Shown: positions 33,245-46,416 of the stretch, piece by piece
Layout: each line of letters starts with the position of its first letter
Numbering within the stretch: the first letter of the stretch is position 1
NCBI GenBank assembly: GCA_026398875.1
Contig: JAPLSB010000019.1
Span: forward strand, 434,001 to 498,000
From: Gammaproteobacteria bacterium
GTDB taxonomy: Bacteria > Pseudomonadota > Gammaproteobacteria > Nevskiales > Nevskiaceae
Length of the DNA: 64,000 nt
Direction of reading: 5' to 3'
Position numbers and translations under genes: made by a program
Notes under the pieces: model-generated
Seen by the model: the letters and a program-made list of their open reading frames with translations, nothing else
Databases searched by the model: none
Told to the model about the DNA's origin: nothing

Positions 33245-34711
33245 ATGTGTCTAACTAATGGACATAAATCCAAAATTTCCCTGCCGGTTCGAACACGACG
33301 CACCGGCATCAGCGCCGCCGGCCGCGTGCAGCGGCTGCTGCTGGTGCTGGGGCTGTCACTGACGGTAACTGCGCATTCCGATGCCGCGAATGACGCCGAT
33401 CCCCTCGCCACCTACCTGTCCGACGCGCTGGCCAGCAACGCCCTGCTGAAGGCGCAGGACTTCGCGGTCGAAGCTGCCGCACAGGGGCTTGGCGCCGCGC
33501 GTGCGCAGCGCGCGCCGCAGCTGGCGCTGACCGCCCGCTACACGGTGGCCGACGGCGGCCGCGTGATCCGCATCCCGACCGGCGATCTGGTCAACCCGAT
33601 CTACCAGACGCTCAATCAGCTCACTGCCGGCAGCGGCAATCCGACCCAGTTCCCGCAGATCGGCAACAACGACATCAACTTGCTGCGCCGGACCGAGCAG
33701 GACACCCGCCTGACCTTGAGCGCGCCGATCTACGCGCCGCAGATCGCCGAGCAGATCCGCATCCGCGCTGCGGAGTTCGACGGTTCGGTCGCCACCCGCG
33801 AGGCCTTTGCCCGCACGCTGGTCCGCGACGTCAAGACTGCCTACTTCCAGCTGGCCCAGATCCAGGCCGGCATCCGCATCCTCGACGCCAGCCAGATCAC
33901 GCTGGCCGAGAACCGCCGCGTCGCCGAAGCGCTGGTCGCCGCCGGCAAGGCCACGCGCGATCGCGTGCTGCGCGCCGAAGCGGAGTTCCTCGCGATCGAG
34001 CAGCGCCTGCATGCAGCCCGCAATGACGAACGCGCCGCCCGCCGCTACCTGAACCTGCTGCGCAACCGCGACGAAGCCGCAGCCGTCACGGTCGCCGATG
34101 GCGCGCTGTTCGCAACGCCCGACGACCGCGGCAGCCAGGCCACGCGGCCGGAACTGCGCGGACTCGATTCGCGAATCGATGCGGCCGACCACGCGACGAA
34201 GCTGGCCGGATCGAGCCTGCTGCCGACGCTGTCGCTGGTGGCCGACAGCGGCATCCAGGGCACCGGCTACAAGATCGATCGCGACGCCGATGTGTCCACC
34301 GCCTCGCTGGTGCTGAACTGGACCCTGTTCGACTTCGGCGCGCGCCGCGCCGCCGAATCGCAAGCCCGCGCGCAGACCCAGCAATTGCGGGCGACGCGCG
34401 ACGAGGTTCGCCGCCAGCTTGATCTGGCGCGCCTGTCGGCCGACGACAACGCGCTGACTGCCGAACGTTCGCTGCTGACGGCAGAAGCGCGGATCGCCGC
34501 TGCCGAAGAAGGCTTCCGGATTGCCGAGCGCAAGCGCGACGCCGGCCAGCTCAGCCAGATCGAATTCCTCGATGCCGAACGCGCGCAGACCGAAGCCCGG
34601 CTTGGCCTCGCGATCGCCCGCAGCGATTTGCAGAGCGCGCGCGCCGAACAGGAATACACCCGCGCTGCCTACCCCTTGCCCGCCACCCTCGTTTCGAGTG
34701 CCACGCCATGA
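33245..34711 (+). CDS. TolC-family outer-membrane efflux protein
   Basis: A 488-residue outer-membrane channel subunit. A long N-terminal region (MCLTNGHKSKISLPVRTRRTG) precedes a signal-peptide-like segment (LLLVLGLSLTVTAHSDA), so the true start may be later. Long amphipathic helices with heptad-like Ala/Glu/Arg patterns and repeated features (two copies of the TolC half, e.g. RVLRAEAEFLAIEQRL and LDAERAQTEARLG) follow. A longer in-frame reading from 32780 lies inside tetR and is rejected. ATGA overlap joins it to the adaptor gene. Confidence 0.9.
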   Translation: MCLTNGHKSKISLPVRTRRTGISAAGRVQRLLLVLGLSLTVTAHSDAANDADPLATYLSDALASNALLKAQDFAVEAAAQGLGAARAQRAPQLALTARYTVADGGRVIRIPTGDLVNPIYQTLNQLTAGSGNPTQFPQIGNNDINLLRRTEQDTRLTLSAPIYAPQIAEQIRIRAAEFDGSVATREAFARTLVRDVKTAYFQLAQIQAGIRILDASQITLAENRRVAEALVAAGKATRDRVLRAEAEFLAIEQRLHAARNDERAARRYLNLLRNRDEAAAVTVADGALFATPDDRGSQATRPELRGLDSRIDAADHATKLAGSSLLPTLSLVADSGIQGTGYKIDRDADVSTASLVLNWTLFDFGARRAAESQARAQTQQLRATRDEVRRQLDLARLSADDNALTAERSLLTAEARIAAAEEGFRIAERKRDAGQLSQIEFLDAERAQTEARLGLAIARSDLQSARAEQEYTRAAYPLPATLVSSATP

Positions 34712-35778
34712 CCGCTCGCCTCCCGCTGCTGATATCCGTTTCCGCCGCGCTGCTGGCTGGCTGCGGCGCCGACAACAAGATCGATGAAGCCGCCACTGCG
34801 GCACCGCTGCGCGCCGTTCGCGTCGCCGCCGTCAGGAACGGCCCGGCCGAACCGCCGGTGCAGGCCAGCGGTCTGGCATCGAGCCGCGATGAAGCGAAGC
34901 TCGCATTCAAGGTCGGCGGCGTGATTGCCGCGATCGAGGTCCGCGAAGGCGACGAAGTGCGCGCCGGCCAGCGGCTGGCGCGGATCGAGGCGGCCGAGAT
35001 CGATGCATCGGTCGCGCAGGCCCGCGCAGCACTGGCCAAGGCCAGCCGTGACCTGGCCCGTGGCAAGAAATTGTTCGCCGACGATGTCGTGACCCGCGAA
35101 CAGCTCGATGACCTCGGCACGGCGGAAACCGTTGCCCGCGCGCAGCTCGATGCCGCGAGCTTCAACCGCCGCTATGCCGAAATCACCGCGCCGGCCGATG
35201 GCCGCGTGCTGTCACGGCTTGCCGAACCGCGCGAGCTGGTGCAGCCCGGCGCGCCGGTGCTGGTGGTGTCGGCGAGCGGCAGCGGCACGGTGCTCGAGGT
35301 CGGGCTGGCCGATCGCGATGCGCTGCGCGTCAAGGTCGGCGACAGCGCCGAAGTCCGTTTCGATGCCCTGCCCGATCGCGTATTCCCGGCCAAGGTGCAG
35401 GAACTCGCGCGCGCCAGCGATCCACGTACCGGCACCTGGCGCTGCGAACTGGCGGTTGACACCGCCAGCGCCGAACTGCCGGCGTTCAGCGGCCTGATCG
35501 GCCGTGCGCGGATCGTGCCGGCCACCAGCCTGTCAACGCGCCGCAGCTATCTGCCGATCGAGGCCCTGGTCGAGGGTGATCAGGCGAAAGCACGGCTGTA
35601 CCTGTTCGATCCGAAGACCGGCACGGTGAAGAGTGCCGAGCACCGCGTCGCCTTTGTCAGCGGCACCGAGGTCGCCCTTGGCGATGTCCTGCCCGACGGC
35701 ACGCAAGTGGTCACCGATGGCGCGGCGTATCTGCGCGATGGCGAAACCGTGCGGGTGGTGACGGAGACCGCGCCATGA
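34708..35778 (+). CDS. RND efflux periplasmic adaptor (membrane fusion lipoprotein)
   Basis: A 356-residue HlyD/AcrA-type adaptor. The lipobox LLAGC ends near residue 19, so it should be anchored in the inner membrane. The lipoyl half-motifs are KVGGVIAAIEVREGDEVRAGQRLARIE and ITAPADGRVLSRLAEPRELVQPGAPVL, around a short coiled hairpin (AQARAALAKASRDLARGKKLF). It links the TolC channel to the RND pump encoded by the overlapping downstream gene (ATGA at 35775-35778). Confidence 0.93.
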   Translation: MTARLPLLISVSAALLAGCGADNKIDEAATAAPLRAVRVAAVRNGPAEPPVQASGLASSRDEAKLAFKVGGVIAAIEVREGDEVRAGQRLARIEAAEIDASVAQARAALAKASRDLARGKKLFADDVVTREQLDDLGTAETVARAQLDAASFNRRYAEITAPADGRVLSRLAEPRELVQPGAPVLVVSASGSGTVLEVGLADRDALRVKVGDSAEVRFDALPDRVFPAKVQELARASDPRTGTWRCELAVDTASAELPAFSGLIGRARIVPATSLSTRRSYLPIEALVEGDQAKARLYLFDPKTGTVKSAEHRVAFVSGTEVALGDVLPDGTQVVTDGAAYLRDGETVRVVTETAP

Positions 35779-38700
35779 GCCTGCCGGAATTTTCCGTCCG
35801 CAACTTCCCGTTCACGCTGGTGATGTTCGGGCTGCTGGCTGCCCTCGGCATCAGCAGTCTGAACAGCATTCCGCGCACCGAAGATCCGTATTTCCCGATC
35901 TCGGCGTTCAACGTCATCGCGATCTATCCGGGTGCCGATCCGATCGAGATCGAACGGCAGATCGCCGAGCCGATCGAGGACGCGATCAACGAGATCGATG
36001 ACGTCAAGCACATCTTCACGCAGGCCGATGACTCGCTGGCGCTGGTGCAGGTCGAGTTCCTGACCGAGGTCGACGTCGAAAAGAAGTACGACGAACTGTC
36101 GCGCGAGATCGCGGCACTGCGGCCGACGCTGCCGGCCGGCGTGACCCGGCTGGAGGTCAAGAAGATCAACCCGGGGCTGGTCAACATCGTGCAGGTGGCA
36201 CTGGTCTCGGACAGCGCGAGTTACGGCCGGCTCGCCGATCTGGCCGAGGATCTCGAGGACCGTCTGGAAACCATCGCCGCGGTCCGCGAAGCCAAGACCT
36301 GGGCCTATCCGAAGCGCGAACTGCGAGTGGCGCTGGACTTCCACCGTCTGGCCGAGCTGAAGCTGAAGGCCTCCGACGTGCTGGCGGCCGTGACCGGCGA
36401 GAACACCAACATTCCGGGCGGCCCTATCGATGTCGACAGCCGCCGCTTCAACCTGCAGACCTCCGGCAGCTATGAATCGCTGGACGCGGTACGCAACACG
36501 GTGATCGGCGGCAGCCTTGGAAGGCTGGTCACCGTCGGCGATGTCGCCACGGTCGACTGGGACTACGAATCGCTGGAATACAGCGCGCGCTACAACGGCA
36601 AGCGCGCGATCTGGATCACTGCGAACCAGAAGGACGCGCAGAACATCTTCACGACACAGAAGGCCATCGAAGCAGTGATTGCCGACTTCGCGAAGACCCT
36701 GCCGGCCGACGTGACGCTGGAGCGCGCCTTCGATCAATCGAAGAATGTCGACCGCCGCCTGTCGCGGCTGACCTTGGATTTCGCGCTGGCCATCGCGCTG
36801 GTCGCGATCACGCTGCTGCCGCTCGGCCTGCGCGCGGCCGGCGTGGTGATGATCTCGATTCCGCTGTCGCTGGCAACCGGCGTGGCCGCACTGCATTTCG
36901 CCGGCTTCTCGATCAACCAGCTGTCGATCGCCGGCTTCGTCGTGGCGCTTGGCCTGCTGGTTGACGATTCGATCGTGGTCACCGAGAACATCGCCCGCTT
37001 CCTGCGCATGGGCCATTCGCGGATCGATGCCGCGATCCTGGCGACGAAGCAGATCTCGCTGGCGGTGCTCGGCTGCACGGCCACATTGTTGTTCGCGTTC
37101 CTGCCGCTGCTGATGCTGCCGGAGAACGCCGGCAAGTTCATACGCTCGCTGCCGGTGGCGGTGGTGTTCACGGTCACCGCTTCGCTGTTCGTCAGTCTGA
37201 CGATCATCCCGTTCCTGGCATCGCGGATGCTGCCGCGCGAGCAGCATGAGGAGGGCAACGCCTTCCTGCGGGCAACGCTGAAGCTGATTCGCGGCGTCTA
37301 CGCGCCGCTGCTGCATCGCGCGCTGGCTCGGCCGGCCGCCACCGCCACGGGCGCTGGCCTGCTGTTCGTGGCCAGCCTCGCGCTGGTGCCGGCGATCGGC
37401 TTCTCGCTGTTCCCGAAGGCCGGCACGCCACAGTTCCTGGTGCAGATCACGCTACCGGTCGGCGCCAGCCTTGCCGCCAGCGATGCGGTGCTGAAACAGG
37501 TGGAAAGCGCACTGGCGGCGGAGCCCGATGTCGCCAAGTCGATGGCCAACGTCGGCCGCGGCAATCCGCAGATCTACTACAACATTTTCCAGAAGGAACT
37601 GGCCGCCAACTACGCCGAAGTGTTCGTTGAACTGGAGCGCTACGACGAGCGCCGCACGACCGCTGTCTACGATCGGCTGCGCGCGAAGTTCGCGCAGATT
37701 CCCGGCGCCGAGATCGTCCTCAAGGAATTCGAGAACGGCCCGCCGATCGCCGCCCCGATCGCGATCCGCGTCGTCGGTCCGGACCTCGATCAACTACGCA
37801 AGCTGGCCAGTGATGTCGAAGCGATCATCAACGGCGTGCCCGGCACGCGTGACGTGATCAATCCGCTGCGCCGCTCACGGCTCGATCTGGAACTGGCGGT
37901 CGACCCGAAACGCGCCGGCCTGCTCGGCGTGCAGCCGGTGGAACTGGACCAGACCTTGCGGCTGGCCGTGGCTGGCTTGCCGGCCGGTGATTTCCGGACG
38001 GCCGATGGCGACAACTCCCCGGTGGTGCTGCGCGCGCCGATGCAGGCGCGCGCGTCGCTGGCCACGCTCGATGGCCTGCATGTCGGCACCGTCAACGGCA
38101 CCCAGGTACCGCTGGCACAGCTCGCCGAACTGAAGCTGGTGGAATCACCGGCCGGCATCGAGCGCTATGACCGCGCCCGTTCGGTGACCGTGACCGCCTA
38201 CACCCGCACCGGCTACAACACCGACGCACTGACCCGTGCTGTGACCGATCAGCTGAAGACTTACGACTGGCCAGCCGGCTACCGCTTCGACATCGCCGGC
38301 GAAGCCGAAAGCCGCGCCGAAAGCTTCGCCGGCTTCGGGGCCGCGATCATGATCACCACGTTCGGCATCCTCGCGGTGCTGGTACTGGAGTTCGGCAGCT
38401 TCAAGTCGACCTTGATCGTGGCCACCGTCATTCCGCTCGGCGTCATGGGCGGCCTGCTGGCGCTGTTCTTCAGCGGCTATTCGATGAGCTTCTCGGCGAT
38501 CATCGGCTTCATCGCGCTGATCGGCATCGAGATCAAGAACTCGATCCTGCTGGTCGATTTCACCAACCAGCTGCGTCGCGACGGCACCGAGCTGAACCGT
38601 GCGATTGAACAGGCCGGCGAAGTGCGCTTCCTGCCGATCCTGCTGACTTCGCTGACTGCCATCGGCGGCCTGCTGCCGCTGGCGTTTCAAGGCTCCGGGC

Positions 38701-38858
38701 TGTACTCGCCGCTGGCCTGGGTGATCATCGGCGGCCTGGTATCGTCGACCCTGATCGGCCGCCTGGTGACGCCGGTGATGTACAAGCTGCTGCCGCCGGT
38801 GATCGACATCCCGCCGTCGGCGTCAGCGCTGCCAGACGATGCGCTGCCGTCCGCCTGA
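35775..38858 (+). CDS. RND efflux transporter permease (HAE type)
   Basis: A 1027-residue inner-membrane, proton-driven pump with the usual two-fold repeat: one N-terminal helix, a large periplasmic loop, six helices, then the second half. The proton-relay motif GLLVDDSIVVTENI with paired Asp in TM4 marks the hydrophobe/amphiphile exporter type rather than heavy-metal type. The second half contains GFIALIGIEIKNSILLVDFTNQLR. Last gene of tetR-tolC-mfp-rnd; it converges on the sensor gene with only 23 bases between stops. Exported substrate is unknown. Confidence 0.95.
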   Translation: MSLPEFSVRNFPFTLVMFGLLAALGISSLNSIPRTEDPYFPISAFNVIAIYPGADPIEIERQIAEPIEDAINEIDDVKHIFTQADDSLALVQVEFLTEVDVEKKYDELSREIAALRPTLPAGVTRLEVKKINPGLVNIVQVALVSDSASYGRLADLAEDLEDRLETIAAVREAKTWAYPKRELRVALDFHRLAELKLKASDVLAAVTGENTNIPGGPIDVDSRRFNLQTSGSYESLDAVRNTVIGGSLGRLVTVGDVATVDWDYESLEYSARYNGKRAIWITANQKDAQNIFTTQKAIEAVIADFAKTLPADVTLERAFDQSKNVDRRLSRLTLDFALAIALVAITLLPLGLRAAGVVMISIPLSLATGVAALHFAGFSINQLSIAGFVVALGLLVDDSIVVTENIARFLRMGHSRIDAAILATKQISLAVLGCTATLLFAFLPLLMLPENAGKFIRSLPVAVVFTVTASLFVSLTIIPFLASRMLPREQHEEGNAFLRATLKLIRGVYAPLLHRALARPAATATGAGLLFVASLALVPAIGFSLFPKAGTPQFLVQITLPVGASLAASDAVLKQVESALAAEPDVAKSMANVGRGNPQIYYNIFQKELAANYAEVFVELERYDERRTTAVYDRLRAKFAQIPGAEIVLKEFENGPPIAAPIAIRVVGPDLDQLRKLASDVEAIINGVPGTRDVINPLRRSRLDLELAVDPKRAGLLGVQPVELDQTLRLAVAGLPAGDFRTADGDNSPVVLRAPMQARASLATLDGLHVGTVNGTQVPLAQLAELKLVESPAGIERYDRARSVTVTAYTRTGYNTDALTRAVTDQLKTYDWPAGYRFDIAGEAESRAESFAGFGAAIMITTFGILAVLVLEFGSFKSTLIVATVIPLGVMGGLLALFFSGYSMSFSAIIGFIALIGIEIKNSILLVDFTNQLRRDGTELNRAIEQAGEVRFLPILLTSLTAIGGLLPLAFQGSGLYSPLAWVIIGGLVSSTLIGRLVTPVMYKLLPPVIDIPPSASALPDDALPSA

Positions 38859-38881: not shown

Positions 38882-39421
38882 TCAGCGGCCTTGTGGCATC
38901 GGCGGCGGGCCTCCGCCGCCGGTGCCGAGCGGCATCGGCGGCAGACCGCGGACGAAGGCCTTGCGATCCTCCGGCGACAGCACGCCCGCCAGCGCTGCGA
39001 CACGATCGCCCATCCCCGCCGACATCGTGGCTTCCGCCGTGCGCAGGCGCGCAAACGCGGCGTCGAACGCGGCGCGGTCGAACGGCTCGGCAATGAAAGC
39101 CTGATCCATCGCCTGCCGCGCTTCGCGCAGCGCGGTCAGTTGTTCCCCCAGCGCCGCATCGTCGGCCGCCCGCATCGCCATCACCTGTTCGCGGCCGGCG
39201 GCTGACAAGCCATCGCCGAACGGACCACGCGGCCCCGGCCCATGCAGCGGCGACCGCGCGCCGAAACCCATGCCGGGCGGCGGTCGCGGCGGGCCGAGCA
39301 CCACAGCGGCGCTGATACCGCCAACGAGAAACAGGTTGAGCGCCGCAGAGGCGATCAGCCAGTTGTTGCGGCGCGGCGCCGGCGGCGCGGTGTTCATCAG
39401 GGATTCGGCTCCGGAAGTCAT
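38882..39421 (-). CDS. Periplasmic sensor, CnrX/Spy-like (heavy-metal resistance family)
   Basis: A 179-residue protein: short cytoplasmic N-terminus, one TM/signal anchor (WLIASAALNLFLVGGISAAVVL, about residues 21-42), then a Pro/Gly-rich linker and an antiparallel helical domain (SAAGREQVMAMRAADDAAL...ALREARQAMDQAFI...DRAAFDAAFARLRTAEATM) as in CnrX, NccX, Spy and CpxP. A Pro/Gly C-terminal tail follows. ATGA overlap couples it to the anti-sigma gene. Expected to hold the anti-sigma factor until metal or misfolded protein is bound. No His-rich metal site is obvious. Confidence 0.75.
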   Translation of the reverse strand: MTSGAESLMNTAPPAPRRNNWLIASAALNLFLVGGISAAVVLGPPRPPPGMGFGARSPLHGPGPRGPFGDGLSAAGREQVMAMRAADDAALGEQLTALREARQAMDQAFIAEPFDRAAFDAAFARLRTAEATMSAGMGDRVAALAGVLSPEDRKAFVRGLPPMPLGTGGGGPPPMPQGR

Positions 39422-39900
39422 TGCGGTACCTGCTGCAGATCAAGAAGCAGGCGCTCGGCGAAGCCCTGCCGGTAGCGAAGGTCATCGCCGGTCATGTCGT
39501 CAGTGGCGGCGCTGGCCATCTCGTCAGTCGAAAACATGACGGTGCCGGCCGTGGCGCCGATGTTGATGCCGGCAACCAGCGCCATTGCCATCGCCGGCAG
39601 CGCGATCCGCCAGCCGCCGAGCAAGGCCAGCAATTCCTGCCAGCGCGAGGCTGGACGATCAACGGTCGCCGCCACCGCCAGCCGCACGGCGCGGCTGGCC
39701 TCGGCCGTCGCCGCGGCGGCGACATCGGCATCGAGCAGCGCGTCCAGCGCCGCGGCATTGCGCAGCAGCGCGGCCGCGGCCGCATCGGCACTGGCGAAAG
39801 CCAGCGCCGCACTCCGCTCGGCCGCAGGCCAGCGGCGCGGCTCCGCACCGTAGGCATCGATCAGTTCGGTAAAGCGTTCAAGGTGCATCGCAGGCTTCAT
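39418..39900 (-). CDS. One-pass membrane protein, probable anti-sigma factor
   Basis: A 160-residue protein starting MKPAMHLERFTELIDAYGAEPRRWPAAERSAALAF, an N-terminal pattern frequent in proteins encoded next to ECF sigma factors. A helical cytoplasmic region (about 1-95) is followed by one TM helix (IALPAMAMALVAGINIGATAGTVMF) and a short periplasmic end. ATGA overlaps tie it to the sigma gene before it and the CnrX-like gene after it. Anti-sigma function is inferred from topology and position. Confidence 0.7.
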   Translation of the reverse strand: MKPAMHLERFTELIDAYGAEPRRWPAAERSAALAFASADAAAAALLRNAAALDALLDADVAAAATAEASRAVRLAVAATVDRPASRWQELLALLGGWRIALPAMAMALVAGINIGATAGTVMFSTDEMASAATDDMTGDDLRYRQGFAERLLLDLQQVPQ

Positions 39901-40469
39901 GACAGATCTCCGATCAACGCGGCGCGCTCCGGCAGCAATGCGGCCCGCAGCGCCCGACGGCCGCGCGCGAGCAGTGATTCGAGCGCTTCGATCGAGATCT
40001 CCAGCGCGGCAGCGGCTTCGATATTGGTCATCTCCTCGAAGTGGCACAAGACCACGGCAGCACGCTGGCGCTCGGCCAGCGTGCCCAGCGCGGCACGCAC
40101 CCGAAGTGCCACCGACTGCTGCTGCAGATGGGCATCCGGCAGCGGGCTGCGATCGACGAATTCCGGGCTGTCGTCCAGCGAGGTCTCGCGTCTTGCGCGC
40201 AGGCGGTCGGTGCAGCGCGACAGCGCCACGCGATGCAGCCAGGTCGAGAATTTCGCGTTGCCGGCTTGCCAATTCACGGTCTGCCGCCAGCCGCGCAGCA
40301 GCACGTCCTGAGCAACGTCCTCGGCTTCCGCACGGCTGCCGAGCATCCGTTCGGCGACCCGGGTGATCGCGTCGATGTTGCGGTGGACGATGCGCCCGTA
40401 GGCCGCCTGATCACCATCGGCCGCGCGCCGGACATCCGCCAGATCCGGATCGTCGAGCGGCGTCGTCAT
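39897..40469 (-). CDS. ECF-type sigma-70 factor
   Basis: A 190-residue sigma factor. Region 2 is RIVHRNIDAITRVAERMLGSRAEAEDVAQDVLLRGWRQ...STWLHRVALSRCTDRLR and region 4 is LAERQRAAVVLCHFEEMTNIEAAAALEISIEALESLLARGRRALRA. The region-4 sequence lacks the longest loops of housekeeping sigmas, fitting the ECF class. MTTPLDDPDL at 40469 is chosen; ATG 40526 would add 19 residues. Fourth of six genes in a leftward operon, coupled to anti-sigma and sensor genes, so it likely activates its own operon. Confidence 0.88.
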   Translation of the reverse strand: MTTPLDDPDLADVRRAADGDQAAYGRIVHRNIDAITRVAERMLGSRAEAEDVAQDVLLRGWRQTVNWQAGNAKFSTWLHRVALSRCTDRLRARRETSLDDSPEFVDRSPLPDAHLQQQSVALRVRAALGTLAERQRAAVVLCHFEEMTNIEAAAALEISIEALESLLARGRRALRAALLPERAALIGDLS

Positions 40470-40542
40470 GTCCGCCGATGCCGACAGCGGCAGCAGATTG
40501 CCAGGACTGACCCGTTCGGAAACCATGCGCTCGCCATTCCGG

Positions 40543-41148
40543 CTATCGAAGCACGAACGCTTGCAGCGCAGCGACCTCGGCGGCGACCGGCGTCCAGCGT
40601 CCGGCCCCGCCCCCGACCCCGAAACCGCGTCCGACGCCATCGCCGGCGAGCAGATGCAGTCTGGGCAGGAAGCGATGCAGGTCCTGAAACGGGCCGAGCC
40701 GGATCACCGAGGCATCGAGATCGAGCAGCGCACGCAGCGGTGCCGCCTGCCCGGCCACCAGTTCGATATCGAGGTCGGCGAACGCCAAACGCGGATCCAC
40801 CGCCAGCGCAGTACGGCCGCCTGCTGACGACGCGAACCAGACCGTCTCGTCGAACACCAGCCGCAGGCCGATATAGCGCCCGGCCGGCAGTTCGCCGCGC
40901 AGCTGCAGCTTGCGCGGCGCTGTCGCCAGCGCCACCAGATCGATCTGCACCGGCGGCACGACCGGCAAGTTGTACAGCCGGCCGCGGCCATCGATCAGCT
41001 CGACCGCCGTCGGGACCGCCAGCAACTGGCTGCCGACGAAAGCCGGGCTGCTGATCAATTCGACGTCGACTCGGGCACCGCGCTGACAGCCCGACAGCAG
41101 CAGTGTCGCCAGCAGCAGCCCGATGCCGTTCCGCCAAAGCCGGCTCAT
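40543..41148 (-). CDS. Lipoprotein with DUF4382-like domain
   Basis: A 201-residue protein with a lipobox LLLSGC ending at Cys21. The middle (PPVQIDLVALATAPRKLQLRGELPAGRYIGLRLVFDETVWF) resembles DUF4382, where a 'dLl.L..g..L..g.LpaG.Y..iRLv' pattern recurs. The C-terminal ~30 residues are Gly-rich, then hydrophobic. ATGA overlaps the stop of the Ig-like lipoprotein gene upstream. Function unknown; probably outer-membrane-anchored. Confidence 0.7.
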   Translation of the reverse strand: MSRLWRNGIGLLLATLLLSGCQRGARVDVELISSPAFVGSQLLAVPTAVELIDGRGRLYNLPVVPPVQIDLVALATAPRKLQLRGELPAGRYIGLRLVFDETVWFASSAGGRTALAVDPRLAFADLDIELVAGQAAPLRALLDLDASVIRLGPFQDLHRFLPRLHLLAGDGVGRGFGVGGGAGRWTPVAAEVAALQAFVLR

Positions 41149-42449
41149 GGCGACAGCCCGGCGTTCGGGTCGGGGCTTGCGGCGGCATAACTTCGAACGG
41201 TGACGAAATCGTCGGCGTCATCGGTGGCCGCTGCCACCGCTGCGCCAAGCGTCGTTGTCACCTCGGCATCCGGCACGGTGACGGTGCCGGCATCGTCGTT
41301 GACCCCCGGCGTGATCGATATCGTCGGGTCGTCGCTGCTCCAGGTCACATGGCGGCTGATCGGCCGAGTGACGCCATCGGCAAACAGGCCGCTGGCCTGC
41401 AGCAGCCCGGTGTCCGGGTAGCGGATGCGCAGCGTTTCCGGCGTCACGGTCACGCGCAGCAGATCGACATCGCTGATCTGCCAGCGCTTGCTGGCCACGC
41501 TCAGGCCGTGATCCGGCAGGCGCAGCGTGAAGCTGGTGGCGCTGTCGTCGCTGTCGACAGCCAGCACGAACAGATGCTCGCTGCCACGGGTCACCGCCAG
41601 CCGATCGTCGTCGACATCGTCGATCTCGATCTGGCGAGCGAGGTTCTGCGCCACGCTGCCCGGCGTCGCGAAGCGCGCCTGCACCGTCACTGCTTCGCTG
41701 TAACCGACCGGCAGCCGCAATTCGCTGCCCTGCTCGTAATCGACATCGAGTGCCGTCGGCGTCGAGACCCGCAGCGGCAGGCTGACTTCACGGCCGCAAC
41801 CGGGAATCCGTGCGATCAGCGTCGCCGTTGCGCCGCTGTTGGCGCTGTTGGCGCTGTTGGCGCTGACCATGCCGGTGCTGATGCCGACCGAGGCGATCGC
41901 CGTCTGCGAATCGAAGCGCCAGACCGCACCGGTGGTCACGTCAAGCTCCTCGCTTTGCGCCGTTGGCCGCAGCAGCAGCTGGAACGGCTGATCAAGCTCG
42001 GCGACCAGATCGGTCAGCTGCGGCGCGATCCGCAAGCTGTCCAGCGCGACGACCTCGACACTGGCGCTGGCGCTGTACTCGGAGAACGTGGCGGTCAACT
42101 GCGCCTGCCCCGGCTTCAGACCGATCACGGCACCCGCCGCGACGACGACCCCATCCGGTCCCGGCGTGATGCCATCGGACACGTACAGCGTGTCCGGCGC
42201 CGACGAGGTCCAGCGCACCCGGCCGGAGAAATCGCCGTTGTTGGTGCCATCACCGTCGAATACCAGCACGGCGGAGACCTGGCTAGCGACACATTCCGGC
42301 ACCGTGAAGCTGCCGGTCGCACCTGCGCCGTACGCCAGATACAGACCGGTCGGGCCAGTGCCGCTGCCGACGCCGAGATCGGCGCCGCCGCCACAGGCCG
42401 CCAGCAGGCCCGCCACAGCGCAGGCGGCCACGGAGGGAAACCTCGGCAT
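41145..42449 (-). CDS. Lipoprotein with bacterial Ig-like domains
   Basis: A 434-residue surface lipoprotein. ATG 42449 is followed by MPRFPSVAACAVAGLLAACGGG, a signal peptide with lipobox LLAAC; a longer frame upstream lies in the NHL gene and is rejected. The rest is Thr/Ser/Val-rich beta sequence with BIG-type repeats, for example RVRWTSSAPDTLYVSDG, AVWRFDSQTAIASVG and HVTWSSDDPTISITPG, each ending in an 'xWxS.d..i..v' strand. A run of three 9-base repeats codes ANSANSANS at about residue 200. Adhesion or structural role is likely. Confidence 0.78.
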   Translation of the reverse strand: MPRFPSVAACAVAGLLAACGGGADLGVGSGTGPTGLYLAYGAGATGSFTVPECVASQVSAVLVFDGDGTNNGDFSGRVRWTSSAPDTLYVSDGITPGPDGVVVAAGAVIGLKPGQAQLTATFSEYSASASVEVVALDSLRIAPQLTDLVAELDQPFQLLLRPTAQSEELDVTTGAVWRFDSQTAIASVGISTGMVSANSANSANSGATATLIARIPGCGREVSLPLRVSTPTALDVDYEQGSELRLPVGYSEAVTVQARFATPGSVAQNLARQIEIDDVDDDRLAVTRGSEHLFVLAVDSDDSATSFTLRLPDHGLSVASKRWQISDVDLLRVTVTPETLRIRYPDTGLLQASGLFADGVTRPISRHVTWSSDDPTISITPGVNDDAGTVTVPDAEVTTTLGAAVAAATDDADDFVTVRSYAAASPDPNAGLSP

Positions 42450-42456
42450 GGTCCGA

Positions 42457-43647
42457 TCAGCCCGGGAAGGCGAGCACGCGGTGGTTGCTGCGATCGACCA
42501 CGTAAAGCACGTTGGCGAACACGCTGACCCCGGTCGGCGACGACAGCGTGCGCGCGCTTGGCGTGTCGTCGGTGTCGCCGTCCTGATCGTCGTCGTTCGG
42601 CAGCCGGGCGCTGTAGCTGTCGCGATCCTGGCCGTAGATGTCGACGGCCAGCGCGTTGTTGGCGATCGGGAAGGCATCGAACTCCAGCACGCGGTTGTTG
42701 CCCGAATCGGCAATCCAGATCCGGGTGCCGTCGGATGCCACGCCGAACGGCGTACGCAACGCGCCCTGCCCGACGCCTGCCGTGACGCGCGAGAAATCGC
42801 TTTGGCCGATCACGAAGCTGGCATCGGCCCCGCTGCTGCGCGGCAGCTGCGACCAGACCATCACCCGGTGGTTGCCGGTATCGGCGACCAGCAGACGGAA
42901 GCCGTCGCTCCAGACGCCAGCCGGCGAATTCAGGCCGTCTTCCTCGTCATTGGCGGTCGCGGTGGTGAAGTCCTGCTGGCCCAGCACGACATCGGCCGGC
43001 GTGCCGTTGGCCGTCGGCACGGTGTTCCAGATCAGCACCCGGTTGTTGTCCTGATCGGAGACGATCAGCTTGTTGTTGGCAATCGTCGCAGCGATCGGAA
43101 AGCTCAGCTGGTCGGCGGCCGTGCCGGGGTCGTCGGTTTGCAGATCGGCCTGGCCGATCACCACGTCGGGCGCCGTGTTGCCGACCGGAAGGCGGTTCCA
43201 GATCAGCACCCGATTGTTGCCGGCGTCGGCAACCACCAGCCGGCCATCGGCAATCGCGACACTGGCCGGCAAGGCCATCCGCGTCGGGCCGGTGCCCGGC
43301 GTGTTCGCAGTTGCCGAGTCCTGGCCGAGCACGAACAGCGCGGGCGTCGTGGCGCTCGGGATCTCGGCATAGCCGAGCACGCGATGGTTGCCGTAGTCGG
43401 CGATGAAGAAGTGGGTACCGTCGGTGGCGATCGAACCCAGCGGCTGGGCGACGCCGAGCGCCGACACCGCGCCGCCGCGATTGGCGCTGCCCGAGGTGAA
43501 ATCGGCCTGGCCGACAACGCGGGTCGCGCTGATCAGTTCGACATCGTCATCGCTGCTGCCGCCACCGCCGCAGGCGCCGAGCAAGCTGGCGGTCAGCACC
43601 ACGGGGAGCACCAGCAGACGACGAAGCAGCGGCAGCGAGACGGGCAT
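42457..43647 (-). CDS. NHL-repeat beta-propeller lipoprotein
   Basis: A 396-residue exported lipoprotein (lipobox SLLGAC at about residue 21-26, then GGGGSSDDD linker). At least six NHL-type blades are visible by the recurrent ADxGNxRVLxW/F ending: IADYGNHRVLGY, VADAGNNRVLIW, SDQDNNRVLIW, VADTGNHRVMVW, IADSGNNRVLEF and VDRSNHRVLAF, each followed by 'VxGQxDF'. It should form a single propeller for protein or carbohydrate binding at the cell surface. It starts the six-gene lipoprotein-sigma operon, 7 bases before the Ig-like gene. Confidence 0.85.
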   Translation of the reverse strand: MPVSLPLLRRLLVLPVVLTASLLGACGGGGSSDDDVELISATRVVGQADFTSGSANRGGAVSALGVAQPLGSIATDGTHFFIADYGNHRVLGYAEIPSATTPALFVLGQDSATANTPGTGPTRMALPASVAIADGRLVVADAGNNRVLIWNRLPVGNTAPDVVIGQADLQTDDPGTAADQLSFPIAATIANNKLIVSDQDNNRVLIWNTVPTANGTPADVVLGQQDFTTATANDEEDGLNSPAGVWSDGFRLLVADTGNHRVMVWSQLPRSSGADASFVIGQSDFSRVTAGVGQGALRTPFGVASDGTRIWIADSGNNRVLEFDAFPIANNALAVDIYGQDRDSYSARLPNDDDQDGDTDDTPSARTLSSPTGVSVFANVLYVVDRSNHRVLAFPG

Positions 43648-43790
43648 GAGGCGAGGCTTCCATTGAATGAGGACGAGGGCGCAGCGCTCGATACGAGCGC
43701 CGCCGTCACTTCAACGGTGCGGGACGATGATTCCGTCGCTGCCGAAGATGATTTTCAGGAACCTGCTGCAGCGGCCCGGCCCAGCGTCGC

Positions 43791-44615
43791 TCAGGACAGC
43801 GGCGGCAGGCCGCGCACCCGCCGCCAGATCGCCTGGCCGGCGCGGTCGTAGGCGCGCACCGTTTCGAAGAACGCATGACGCGCTTCGACGTCGACCATCG
43901 GCGTCGGCAGCAGCGGATCGAACACCACCTGCCGGATCGCCTTGCGGCCCATCAGCAGTGACTCGCGGGCGGCAACGTCCGGCTCCAGCCTTGCGGCCCG
44001 CTGCAGCCAGGCCTGCAGCTCTCGGCGCAGCGTGCGGTAAGCCGCGTTCAGTGCCGCGCCATCCCAGAGTGCCGCGATTCGCGCGCTGCGCGCGGCATCG
44101 AACTGGCCCGCGACAAATACGGCGGCATCCGCCTCCAGACCCAGCTTGACCAGCCGCGCACGCACGGCATCGACGTTGTCCTCGATGTTGTCGGGTCGCA
44201 CTTCCAGCCCCGGATCGAGTTCCCGGAAGCCGAGCAGTTCCAGCGCCCGTGCGCGTTGCTTGTTGCGCTTGCGATCGGTGCGCCCGAGCGGCCCGCTGTG
44301 CACTACCAGCAAGCCGCCTGTCCACGGCCGCGTGCGGCTTTCGATGCGCCGCCAGCCGGCCACGTCACCGGCCAGCTCGTGCGCGGCGCCGCTCAGGCGG
44401 TAGACGCCGCGATCGACCGCTTCGATCAGCCCTTCGCTCGACAGCCGCATCAGCGCAATGCGGACATTGTTTTCGCGGATGCCGAGCAGTGCGGCGCCGC
44501 TGATGGCCTCGCGGGCGGACAGTGGTTCGCCTTCGATGGCCAGCAGAAGGTCGAGGATCAGGGTCTTGGCGGTCAGCATGCGGGGCAGGTCAATTGGCTT
44601 GCGTCGAGCAATCAT
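43791..44615 (-). CDS. PaaX-like transcriptional regulator
   Basis: A winged-helix regulator (274 residues from MIARRKPIDL). The N-terminal domain LILDLLLAIEGEPLSAREAISGAALLGIRENNVRIALMRLSSEGLIEAVDRGVYRLS corresponds to PaaX, the phenylacetyl-CoA repressor; the C-terminal domain is divergent. Starts at 44639, 44615 or 44579 are possible; a palindrome (cattaccgataatg, 44613-44626) in the 40-60 bases before the divergent crotonase gene covers the 44615 codon and may be the operator. No paa genes are present, so the effector may be another acyl-CoA. Confidence 0.72.
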   Translation of the reverse strand: MIARRKPIDLPRMLTAKTLILDLLLAIEGEPLSAREAISGAALLGIRENNVRIALMRLSSEGLIEAVDRGVYRLSGAAHELAGDVAGWRRIESRTRPWTGGLLVVHSGPLGRTDRKRNKQRARALELLGFRELDPGLEVRPDNIEDNVDAVRARLVKLGLEADAAVFVAGQFDAARSARIAALWDGAALNAAYRTLRRELQAWLQRAARLEPDVAARESLLMGRKAIRQVVFDPLLPTPMVDVEARHAFFETVRAYDRAGQAIWRRVRGLPPLS

Positions 44616-44656
44616 TACCGATAATGTCTGTTCATGCACGAACTAGTAATGAATCC

Positions 44657-45460
44657 ATGAACCCGCTGGTCCTGATCGATCGCGCACCGCCGCTGGTGAC
44701 CATCACCATCAACCGGCCGGCGGTCCGCAACTGCGTCGACCGGCCGACTGCCCACGCGCTGGTGGCGGCGTTCGAAGCCTTCGACCGCGATCCCGAACTG
44801 CGCGTCGCGATCCTCACCGGCGCCGATGGCGCGTTCTGCGCCGGTGCCGATCTGAAGGCGGTCAGCAGCGGCGATCCGGCGCGGATCAATCATGTCGGCG
44901 CCGACGGCAGCGGCCCGCTCGGGCCGTCGCGGATGCGGCTGTCGAAACCGGTGATCGCAGCCGTCGCCGGCCCTGCGGTTGCTGGCGGGCTGGAGCTGGC
45001 GCTGTGGTGCGATCTGCGCATTGCCGACGACACGGCGGTATTCGGCGTGTTCTGCCGGCGCTGGGGCGTGCCGCTGATCGACGGCGGCACGGTGCGGCTG
45101 CCGCGCCTGATCGGCCAGTCGCGAGCGCTGGACATGATCCTGACCGGCCGCGCCGTCGGCGCCGATGAAGCCTTCGCGATCGGGCTGGCCAATCGTCGCG
45201 TGCCGGCCGGTCAGGCGCTGACGGCCGCGACCGCACTGGCGCTGGAACTGAGCGCCTTCCCGCAGGCCTGCCTGCGCAGCGATCGCCAGAGCGCACTCGA
45301 CCAGTGGGCGCTGCCGGAAGCAGAAGCGATCGCCCATGAATTCGCGCTCGGTCACCAGACCATCCTCACCGGCGAGACCCATGCCGGTGCCACCCGTTTT
45401 GCCGATGGCCTGGGTCGCCACGGCCAGTTCAGCAATACCGGCCCGGAGGCCACGAAATGA
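44657..45460 (+). CDS. Enoyl-CoA hydratase/isomerase family (crotonase)
   Basis: A 267-residue crotonase-fold enzyme. The oxyanion-hole segments are GADGAFCAGADLKAV (about 55-69) and AAVAGPAVAGGLELALWCDLRIA (about 98-120). FGVFCRRWGVPLIDGGTVRLPRLIG follows; where E. coli FadB-type hydratases have catalytic Glu residues, this protein has Gly/Pro-Leu-Ile-Asp, so hydratase activity is not certain. Divergent from the PaaX-like gene; its stop overlaps the fatty acid desaturase by ATGA. The reaction is probably in acyl-CoA metabolism linked to that desaturase. Confidence 0.88.
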   Translation: MNPLVLIDRAPPLVTITINRPAVRNCVDRPTAHALVAAFEAFDRDPELRVAILTGADGAFCAGADLKAVSSGDPARINHVGADGSGPLGPSRMRLSKPVIAAVAGPAVAGGLELALWCDLRIADDTAVFGVFCRRWGVPLIDGGTVRLPRLIGQSRALDMILTGRAVGADEAFAIGLANRRVPAGQALTAATALALELSAFPQACLRSDRQSALDQWALPEAEAIAHEFALGHQTILTGETHAGATRFADGLGRHGQFSNTGPEATK

Positions 45461-46416
45461 AGTCGTACACGCTTGATCCCGCACTGCGCGAGCAGCTGAA
45501 AGTGCGCTCCAACGCACGTGGCGCACTGTCGCTGGCCAAGGACTACGGCCTGATGGTCGCCGCCTTCGCGCTGCCGATCGCCTGGCCGCACCCGCTGGCC
45601 TGGCTGATCGCGATCCTGATGCTGTGCGGCGTCCACGTTGGCCTTGCGATCCTGACGCACGAAGCGGCGCACAAGTCGCTGTTCGCGAACAGCAAGATCA
45701 ACGACTGGGTCGGCCAGTACCTGTGCGCGCTGCCGAACTTCAACCACATGCCGATGTACCGCGCCTACCACATGGCCCACCACCGGCTGGCCGGCACCAA
45801 GGACGATCCGGACCGGATCATGGTCGATCGCTATCCGGTGACCCGAGCCCAGCTGCGCCGCAAGCTGCTGCGCGACCTGTCCGGGCAATCGGGCGTGAAG
45901 TTCCTGATCGGCATCGTCGCGATGACGGCCGGCTACTGGAAGTTCCAGCAAAACGGGGTTGTCGAAAAGCTCGCCTACGACCGGCGGCAGCGCTTCAGTG
46001 ACTACGCCCTTCGTTTCGTCGTCAACGGCGGCGCGATATCAATTGCCTGGCAATTCGCGATCTGGGGCGTACTGCAGGCACTGGGTCACGGCGAGCTGTA
46101 CCTGCTGTGGGCGCTGGCCTTCCTGATCCCGTTCCCGCTGACCATGCGCATCCGCGTGCTGGCCGATCACGGCGCGATCCACGATCCGGATTCCACCGAC
46201 CCGTTGCTGCACGCGCGCAGCACGTCAGCCAACTGGATCGAGAAGCTGCTGTTCGCGCCGCATCACGAGCACTACCACCTCGAACATCACCTGATGCCGT
46301 CGTGCCCGCACTGGAACCTGCCGAAGCTGCATGCCGTGCTGGTGCGTGACGGCGTGATTCCGCCGGCCAATCAGGCCAGCGGCATGATCGACGTGCTGCG
46401 CCGCGTGACTCGCTGA
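45457..46416 (+). CDS. Membrane fatty acid desaturase
   Basis: A 319-residue diiron membrane desaturase. The three His boxes are HEAAH (68-72), HMAHH (105-109) and HLEHH (274-278), the last with the QxxHH-like variant. Three or four hydrophobic segments surround them. It could introduce a double bond into acyl-lipids or hydroxylate a hydrophobic substrate. Translation is coupled to the crotonase gene (ATGA). The DNA that follows is the edge of the restriction island. Confidence 0.9.
   Translation: MKSYTLDPALREQLKVRSNARGALSLAKDYGLMVAAFALPIAWPHPLAWLIAILMLCGVHVGLAILTHEAAHKSLFANSKINDWVGQYLCALPNFNHMPMYRAYHMAHHRLAGTKDDPDRIMVDRYPVTRAQLRRKLLRDLSGQSGVKFLIGIVAMTAGYWKFQQNGVVEKLAYDRRQRFSDYALRFVVNGGAISIAWQFAIWGVLQALGHGELYLLWALAFLIPFPLTMRIRVLADHGAIHDPDSTDPLLHARSTSANWIEKLLFAPHHEHYHLEHHLMPSCPHWNLPKLHAVLVRDGVIPPANQASGMIDVLRRVTR

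Follow-up and report, generated by a model that had tools for sequence, protein, structure and literature searches.

A six-gene Nevskiaceae operon that places three predicted lipoproteins with an ECF sigma factor, a putative anti-sigma factor and a CnrX-fold sensor behind a candidate ECF promoter

In the 64,000-nucleotide stretch of contig JAPLSB010000019.1 analysed here (the window, part of a genome of 4.15 Mb in 24 contigs), six open reading frames (ORFs) lie on the minus strand, all inside 38882-43647. Read from 43647 down to 38882, they encode an NHL propeller, a Big_2 protein, a DUF4382-like lipoprotein, an extracytoplasmic function (ECF) sigma factor, a putative anti-sigma factor and a sensor of the CnrX/CpxP fold. 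The features are as follows.

43710..43738, minus strand: predicted ECF promoter, CGACGGAATC-N12-CGTTGAA, the sole match in the genome to CGACGGAWTC-N10-14-CGTTGA
43738-43729 and 43716-43710, minus strand: its predicted -35 and -10 parts, 62 nt 5' of the NHL start codon
42457..43647, minus strand: NHL-repeat beta-propeller lipoprotein, 396 residues (Pfam NHL, 1.7e-27; lipobox LGAC, with the Cys as residue 26)
41145..42449, minus strand: Big_2 (Ig-like) lipoprotein, 434 residues (Pfam Big_2, 6.7e-05)
40543..41148, minus strand: DUF4382-like lipoprotein, 201 residues (Pfam DUF4382, 0.0011, below the cut-off; assigned with synteny and two relatives over the cut-off)
39897..40526, minus strand: ECF sigma factor, 209 residues (Sigma70_r2, Sigma70_r4_2; NCBIfam PRK05602 over the cut-off)
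39418..39900, minus strand: putative anti-sigma factor, 160 residues, without a Pfam match (from its position and the same cassette in other Pseudomonadota)
38882..39421, minus strand: membrane-anchored periplasmic sensor of the Metal_resist family (PF13801, 4.3e-23; CnrX/CpxP/Spy fold)

The genes are separated by a 7 nt gap between NHL and Big_2 and a 16 nt gap between the DUF4382-like gene and the sigma gene (with the ATG at 40526 taken as the sigma start), and are joined by ATGA overlaps (-4 nt) at the Big_2/DUF4382-like, sigma/anti-sigma and anti-sigma/sensor junctions. An earlier, sequence-only reading of the window had proposed a tight six-gene operon, and this stands, as all six ORFs are present and every junction is tight. 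Its description of the junctions as ATGA or near-ATGA throughout was right about the tightness of all five, but the ATGA overlap itself occurs at only three of them. An internal promoter and terminator, which that reading regarded as evidence to the contrary, were not found: a scan within the operon returned neither a sigma-70-type promoter nor a minus-strand terminator-like site.

The linkage of the sigma trio with the lipoprotein genes is not a matter of chance. In a family sample of 58 genomes, for which gene order was taken from fetched regions and from our own gene calls (made with a simple codon-usage finder, so that start codons in relatives may be off by some residues), the full six-gene order was found in seven: the window's own genome (G000) together with G013, G019, G025, G018 and G011 of one genus, and G054 (locus L064) of another. 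The prediction that relatives would keep the genes together, rather than all have them unlinked, thus holds. In the same sample the DUF4382-like protein matched 23 genomes at E 0.001 and the sensor nine. An eighth copy of the operon, in G022 (L046, G022:C65), is decayed, with the start of NHL and the end of Big_2 in a single ORF, no DUF4382 gene called, most of the sigma gene missing and the sensor split by a stop; the promoter element is intact, and the decay may be an assembly fault of this metagenome-assembled genome (MAG). The ninth sensor match, in G002, belongs to a different locus with a sigma factor 35% identical to that of the window. The operon lies between a resistance-nodulation-division (RND) pump and a PaaX-like gene in G000, G013 and G019, beyond the desaturase-like gene of the RND-PaaX-hydratase-desaturase block in G025, G011, G022 and G018 (whose contig carries only the desaturase end of the block), and at an unrelated place in G054. 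Because it is found in three genomic settings, the operon moves as a unit.

The block itself, consisting of RND pump, PaaX-like, enoyl-CoA hydratase-like and desaturase-like genes (window positions 34708-38858 and 43791-46416; the last two labels were assigned by eye), is conserved in the genus, and the sigma operon occupies two different places around it (window, L040, L041, L042, L044, L046).

With sigma-70 regions 2 and 4 both above their curated cut-offs and a match of 221.5 bits to NCBIfam PRK05602 (NF004113; cut-off 208), the window protein is an ECF sigma factor of the PRK05602 type; an alternative start at 40469, giving 190 residues, is possible. Searching 85 genomes of the order with it at E 1e-25 gave 11 matches, namely the seven genomes with an intact operon, G066 and G067 of the Oceanococcus group (49-50% identity), G043 (42%) and G031 (37%); the Hydrocarboniphaga (g4) and Solimonas (g10) groups gave none. 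Plasmid relatives reach at most 47.6% identity; in an Azospirillum plasmid region the sigma gene is accompanied by a hypothetical gene, with no sensor named in the annotation, and a Burkholderia region is without annotation.

The lipoprotein genes are also found in other company. An NHL-alignment search returned 238 loci, of which the best 80 were kept for gene calling. Among these 80, 15 loci (from Hydrocarboniphaga, Solimonas, Sinimarinibacterium, Fontimonas and one Nevskiales MAG) have NHL-Big_2 next to genes for an OmpR-type response regulator and a histidine kinase; the DUF4382 gene lies downstream in those of Hydrocarboniphaga and is divergently oriented in the remaining ones. In four more loci, three of Stagnimonas type (L068, L070, L075) and one of Oceanococcus (L069), NHL-Big_2 has neither module beside it. 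L081 is a distant and uncertain NHL-Big_2 case (Big_2 match of 125 bits). Six more two-component-type regions comprise three that are the records L074, L076 and L080 and three new ones, L279, L280 and L281. Only the kinase was called in L281, and in L073 and L083 the kinase was called and the response regulator was not, both being left out of the response-regulator tree. In this tree the Hydrocarboniphaga and Solimonas groups form two clades that are not joined, and the two-component genes may therefore have been recruited twice; that those of Hydrocarboniphaga and Solimonas are one orthologous system, as best hits had indicated, is not supported by it. In the Big_2 tree the six linked loci of ECF type group as a single clade among two-component types (support 99/96), and the NHL tree does not recover the ECF loci as one clade (two changes; one change in 46% of bootstrap trees); we rely on neither tree for the direction of module exchange. 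Two of the three Stagnimonas-type genomes, which have NHL-Big_2 and no two-component genes, were searched and contain no close sigma factor, the best-scoring matches being 32-33% identical.

Solimonas L052, L053 and L054 have a second DUF4382 gene immediately in front of a further response regulator-kinase pair, and the association of DUF4382 lipoproteins with two-component genes is therefore seen more than once.

An indication of what the sigma factor might transcribe comes from the sequence in front of the NHL gene, where the element CGACGGAATC-N12/13-CGTTGAA is present in all eight ECF-type loci, that of L060/G019 differing by one base. Measured from the start of the -35 box CGACGG to the start of the -10 box CGTTGA, the distance is 22-23 nt, a spacing typical of ECF promoters. 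Across the 58 genomes, the pattern CGACGGAWTC-N10-14-CGTTGA has 17 matches in 17 genomes, against one for the reversed control. All eight operon genomes, the decayed one included, have exactly one, just 5' of NHL, and the other nine matches lie in other genomes; eight of these were inspected, and seven are inside predicted ORFs. The eighth, in L175, does not fall within a called gene, and no gene start was called downstream of it. Scored over the 260 nt upstream of NHL, the element reaches 16-17 of 17 positions in the eight ECF-type loci, compared with about 10 in shuffles, while the 15 two-component-type loci all give 9-11, no better than shuffles, and the four loci with neither module give 10, 14, 9 and 11, the three Stagnimonas-type loci being those at 9-11. 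When the window, L044 and L064, which represent three lineages, are compared, both boxes are identical, while outside them 13-22 of 60 bases are shared on the upstream side and 12-17 of 40 on the downstream side. With the spacer fixed at 12 nt, the eight genomes contain seven matches with no or one mismatch, all at the operon (the G018 site, which has a 13-nt spacer, is missed), and four with two mismatches, inside predicted ORFs.

The same region contains an inverted repeat (43714-43663 in the window, and at the same place in L060-L064, L044 and L046), one arm of which begins in the -10 box and the second of which lies just before the NHL start. The arms match in seven of eight loci with stems of 8-11 bp, beyond what shuffles give (no more than 4 of 300 reach that length); the stem of the window itself is 5 bp, within shuffles (54 of 300). 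A large part of the first arm would be situated above the expected transcription start.

A case in which sigma factor and lipoprotein genes are unlinked is provided by Oceanococcus, represented by L069 (by its coordinates the same as G482 and G067) and by G066, a second genome of that genus with long contigs. In both genomes the sigma trio and NHL-Big_2 are on different contigs, and gene calling gave no DUF4382 gene beside either of them. The L069 genome encodes a sigma factor 49% identical to that of the window, and behind the sigma gene lie weak matches to the anti-sigma factor (30 bits) and to the sensor (53 bits). Upstream of NHL in this genome the element scores 14 of 17 at nearly the same distance from NHL as in the operon loci. 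When this genome was searched with the form found at its own NHL site, the next match, with one mismatch, was located just 5' of the sigma gene, all others having three mismatches; G066 has the element at the same two places and nothing else below three mismatches. In G043, G006, G047 and G051, where the lipoprotein genes are of the two-component type or unlinked, the best matches have 2-3 mismatches, and none is at NHL. Judged by these sites, the Oceanococcus case ties the predicted regulator to its predicted target without linkage. The proposal that the system is self-regulated is supported by an element that marks all eight operon loci and both unlinked Oceanococcus halves, and that the sigma factor would be expected to bind.

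In the Oceanococcus group a dioxygenase-like lipoprotein gene (label read from the sequence) lies 3' of the sensor on the same strand (L255:8894-9616, L275:3975-4697).

Outside the family, the trio occurs as a cassette of its own. The putative anti-sigma protein has an N-terminal helical part with an AYGAxxRRWPxAER motif and a likely membrane helix near 97-117 (six sequences aligned); Pfam gave no match for three orthologues, NCBIfam no meaningful match for the window protein, and the structural model is of low confidence (mean predicted local distance difference test, pLDDT, of 54). In a search of 398 genomes of the phylum, a profile of this protein matches 40, one of which is the window's own, and two of the other 39 belong to the class of the window genome. 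For 29 of these 39 the locus was fetched, and beside the anti-sigma gene there is a sigma gene in all 29 and a sensor match in 28 (16-55 bits, some weak). No NHL, Big_2 or DUF4382 match was found within about 1.5 kb of the 29 cassettes. The sigma-anti-sigma-sensor trio is a common unit in Pseudomonadota, and its pairing with these lipoproteins was seen, in the searches made, only in this taxonomic order.

The third member of the trio consists of an N-terminal hydrophobic helix, a proline-rich linker and a helical hairpin. In the AlphaFold model the core has a pLDDT of about 75-94 (65 as the mean of the whole), with an N-terminal helix at residues 16-41 of low confidence. In Foldseek, ranks 1-15 are taken by CnrX entries and one NccX, with a probability of 0.99-1.00 and target template-modelling (TM) scores of 0.64-0.70 for CnrX and 0.53 for NccX; Spy and CpxP follow (E about 1), and ZraP comes far down. 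A sequence profile search places Spy nearest (0.0013) and does not list CnrX. On the model, the sensor is best described as a CnrX fold with a membrane anchor.

Taking these observations together, we consider it likely that the six genes form one autoregulated unit in which a dedicated ECF sigma factor has the lipoprotein genes and its own operon as its main target. The unit would be transcribed from the ECF promoter at 43738-43710. The anti-sigma factor would hold the sigma factor at the inner membrane, until the sensor relays a periplasmic signal, probably other than a metal bound in the CnrX way, that leads to sigma release. The free sigma factor would then transcribe mainly this promoter, and induction would raise the three lipoproteins together with sigma factor, anti-sigma factor and sensor, in a loop that would amplify and then shut itself. 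Gene order, the conserved element, its near-unique occurrence in the genome, its place at both Oceanococcus halves and its lack in loci where two-component genes stand instead of the trio are read directly from sequence. The binding of the sigma factor to the element, the mechanism of release, the direction of signalling, the localisation, and the role of the lipoproteins as output rather than antenna are what we infer.

Several points weigh against this reading. The element was first spotted by eye upstream of NHL in the same loci that were later used for testing, and the eight loci represent only three lineages, and thus few independent events. Likewise, the Oceanococcus pattern was derived from its own NHL site, so that only the match before the sigma gene constitutes a test, and its two genomes, being closely related, count as one independent event. 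At up to three mismatches (12-nt spacer), the eight genomes contain 81 matches, of which seven are operon sites, against 42 for the reversed control, and one of the two-mismatch matches (L207) points at a gene starting 268 nt on; there may be weaker further targets. Before the sigma genes of the 29 outside cassettes, the best listed scores for a window-type element are 8-13 of 17, scored without a control and none of them convincing; those at 13 include L225, from the same class as the window genome. The two-component-type genome G043 also has a remote sigma factor (the 42% match above) with weak anti-sigma and sensor matches, and because it carries both kinds of module their mutual exclusion is not complete. 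Finally, the anti-sigma role is read from gene position and from the outside cassettes, for a protein with no recognised domain and a poor model, and the Foldseek E-values of the sensor are weak (0.06-0.49 in ranks 1-15, none at 0.001).

Translations of the three lipoprotein genes show the lipoboxes LGAC-G, LAAC-G and LSGC-Q after a signal peptide, with no Asp at +2. The sequence-only reading's terms surface, binding and adhesion for these proteins stay conjectural, the lipoboxes being what the sequence itself displays. Under the Lol rule, a lipobox Cys without Asp at +2 directs a lipoprotein to the outer membrane, which is probably the destination of all three. Among 13 NHL orthologues, 55-90% identical, the lipobox Cys is nearly invariant, as it is in the Big_2 alignment (n = 14), where two further cysteines outside the lipobox, C53 and C218, are invariant. 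The Big_2 match of the window protein is 23.2 bits against a cut-off of 22.8, and the L064 orthologue has no Big_2 match in Pfam. For DUF4382, the window protein stays below the cut-off, the relatives L047 and L064 exceed it, and the L062 protein has no match in Pfam.

The DUF4382-like protein has 170-201 residues in the window's genus (40543-41148, L040-L044) and about 290 in most other genera seen, where the longer forms (L047, L064) have a weak, below-cut-off match to a carboxypeptidase-regulatory-like domain after DUF4382; the Nevskia forms seem to have lost a second domain.

One could speculate that these lipoproteins are instead an outer-membrane antenna whose state the periplasmic sensor monitors (in relatives, the histidine kinase would do so), with their place in the operon serving feedback. 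NlpE for Cpx and RcsF for Rcs are antennae of this kind. The idea is compatible with the promoter evidence, the sensor fold is related to CpxP, and the lipoprotein set stays constant while the adjoining module switches between two-component genes and the ECF trio. A contact between lipoprotein and sensor, however, rests on nothing seen in this analysis. Moreover, the trio elsewhere lacks the lipoproteins nearby, and can therefore probably work without them, and the Stagnimonas lineage keeps NHL-Big_2 with neither module adjoining. We regard an antenna role as possible, yet rather unlikely. With a similarly small expectation, NHL-Big_2-DUF4382 might be an envelope antenna that the Nevskiales have coupled, as a portable set, to at least two, perhaps three, unrelated signalling modules, one or two OmpR-type two-component systems and the ECF trio with its metal-blind relative of CpxP and CnrX; if true, the window would hold a pathway from lipoprotein to sensor that resembles Cpx but is rebuilt around an ECF sigma factor.

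A further alternative to a dedicated lipoprotein regulon is that the trio responds to metals, as CnrYXH does, and acts for the convergent RND pump at 35775-38858. Histidines form part of the metal site of CnrX. The sensor fold, the Metal_resist family and the three-part chain fit such a system, as does the pump next door, given that CnrYXH controls an RND pump in the available part of the published account (PMC7689651). The window sensor, however, has no His or Cys in its core (residues 70-160), its sole His being a non-conserved one in the linker, and none is invariant across seven aligned sensors, whose only invariant Met is in the C-terminal tail; because the sensor has no conserved histidine or cysteine, metal sensing of the CnrX type is unlikely. 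The description of the sensor as CnrX-like thus fits its fold, and not the metal ligands. The pump itself is closer to multidrug permeases than to CusA/CzcA (539 vs 359 bits, both below cut-offs), the element search found no match before the pump operon, and in L042, L044 and L046 the sigma operon is away from the pump. As ligands are not conserved, the neighbourhood has moved and the element is missing before the pump, we reject metal sensing in the service of the pump as improbable. A metal site is conceivable in part of the clade, where an HxxH motif is present in the first core helix of the L042-L044 sensors (L042:6336-6911, L043:5235-5789, L044:8952-9524) and absent from those of the window, L040, L041 and L064/L036; the two sensor lineages may have different ligands. 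Among the sensors of 28 outside cassettes, nine have no His in the matched domain and eight have three or more, and metal sensing may therefore exist elsewhere in the sensor family.

The least probable explanation is that hitch-hiking has brought the sigma and lipoprotein genes together and that some other regulator acts at the conserved element. It draws on the facts that a conserved intergenic element alone does not identify its reader and that the ECF-type spacing requires CGACGG to be taken as the -35 in place of GGAAC, the common ECF -35. Against it, the unit is intact in three genomic settings, and element and sigma factor co-occur in Oceanococcus though the genes are unlinked.

No system of this make-up was found described in the open-access literature searched, in keeping with the statement in the sequence-only reading that none was known by name. 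One of the closest known systems is CnrYXH of Cupriavidus metallidurans, which consists of the ECF factor CnrH, the anti-sigma factor CnrY and the sensor CnrX (PMC7689651, PMC4598750, as far as these texts are available), with Met123 in the CnrX metal site (PMC7689651, likewise in part). What is shared is the three-part chain with an ECF sigma factor and a membrane-anchored sensor of the same fold; the likeness is drawn from sensor and sigma factor. The window differs in that its sensor is without conserved metal ligands, in that the predicted target is a lipoprotein set and not an RND pump, and in the order sigma-anti-sigma-sensor, the cnr order being taken from its name. Of the 29 fetched loci with outside PRK05602-type cassettes, 28 share the trio and its gene order with the window, but these cassettes lack the adjoining lipoproteins and a convincing window-type element. 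The response regulator-kinase-NHL-Big_2(-DUF4382) loci of Hydrocarboniphaga, Solimonas, Sinimarinibacterium and Fontimonas, for which we found no name in the literature, have orthologous lipoproteins in the same order, but OmpR-type two-component genes replace the ECF trio and the ECF element is absent. SigAb-AabA-AabB of Acinetobacter, according to the available part of the source (PMC12153292), is an autoregulated ECF operon in which two anti-sigma-type genes lie downstream and whose direct regulon is very small. It resembles the window in autoregulation and in regulon size, which for the window is a prediction, and differs in that its direct targets are sigAb, relA and SabS, that it responds to copper, and that this part of the source names no lipoprotein genes in the operon (PMC12153292).

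The window system would thus belong to a known kind, that of ECF sigma factor, anti-sigma factor and sensor, and its novelty would lie in the exchange of regulators around a lipoprotein set that is kept. For the sensor, the family label of heavy-metal resistance is probably misleading. For the study of ECF factors, the operon offers a system with a predicted very small regulon and a concrete, testable promoter, and Nevskia and Oceanococcus provide a natural comparison of the predicted regulator and target in cis and in trans. Within the order, orthologous lipoproteins that stand beside an ECF trio or beside two-component genes, depending on the genus, would give a way into how signalling modules are exchanged.

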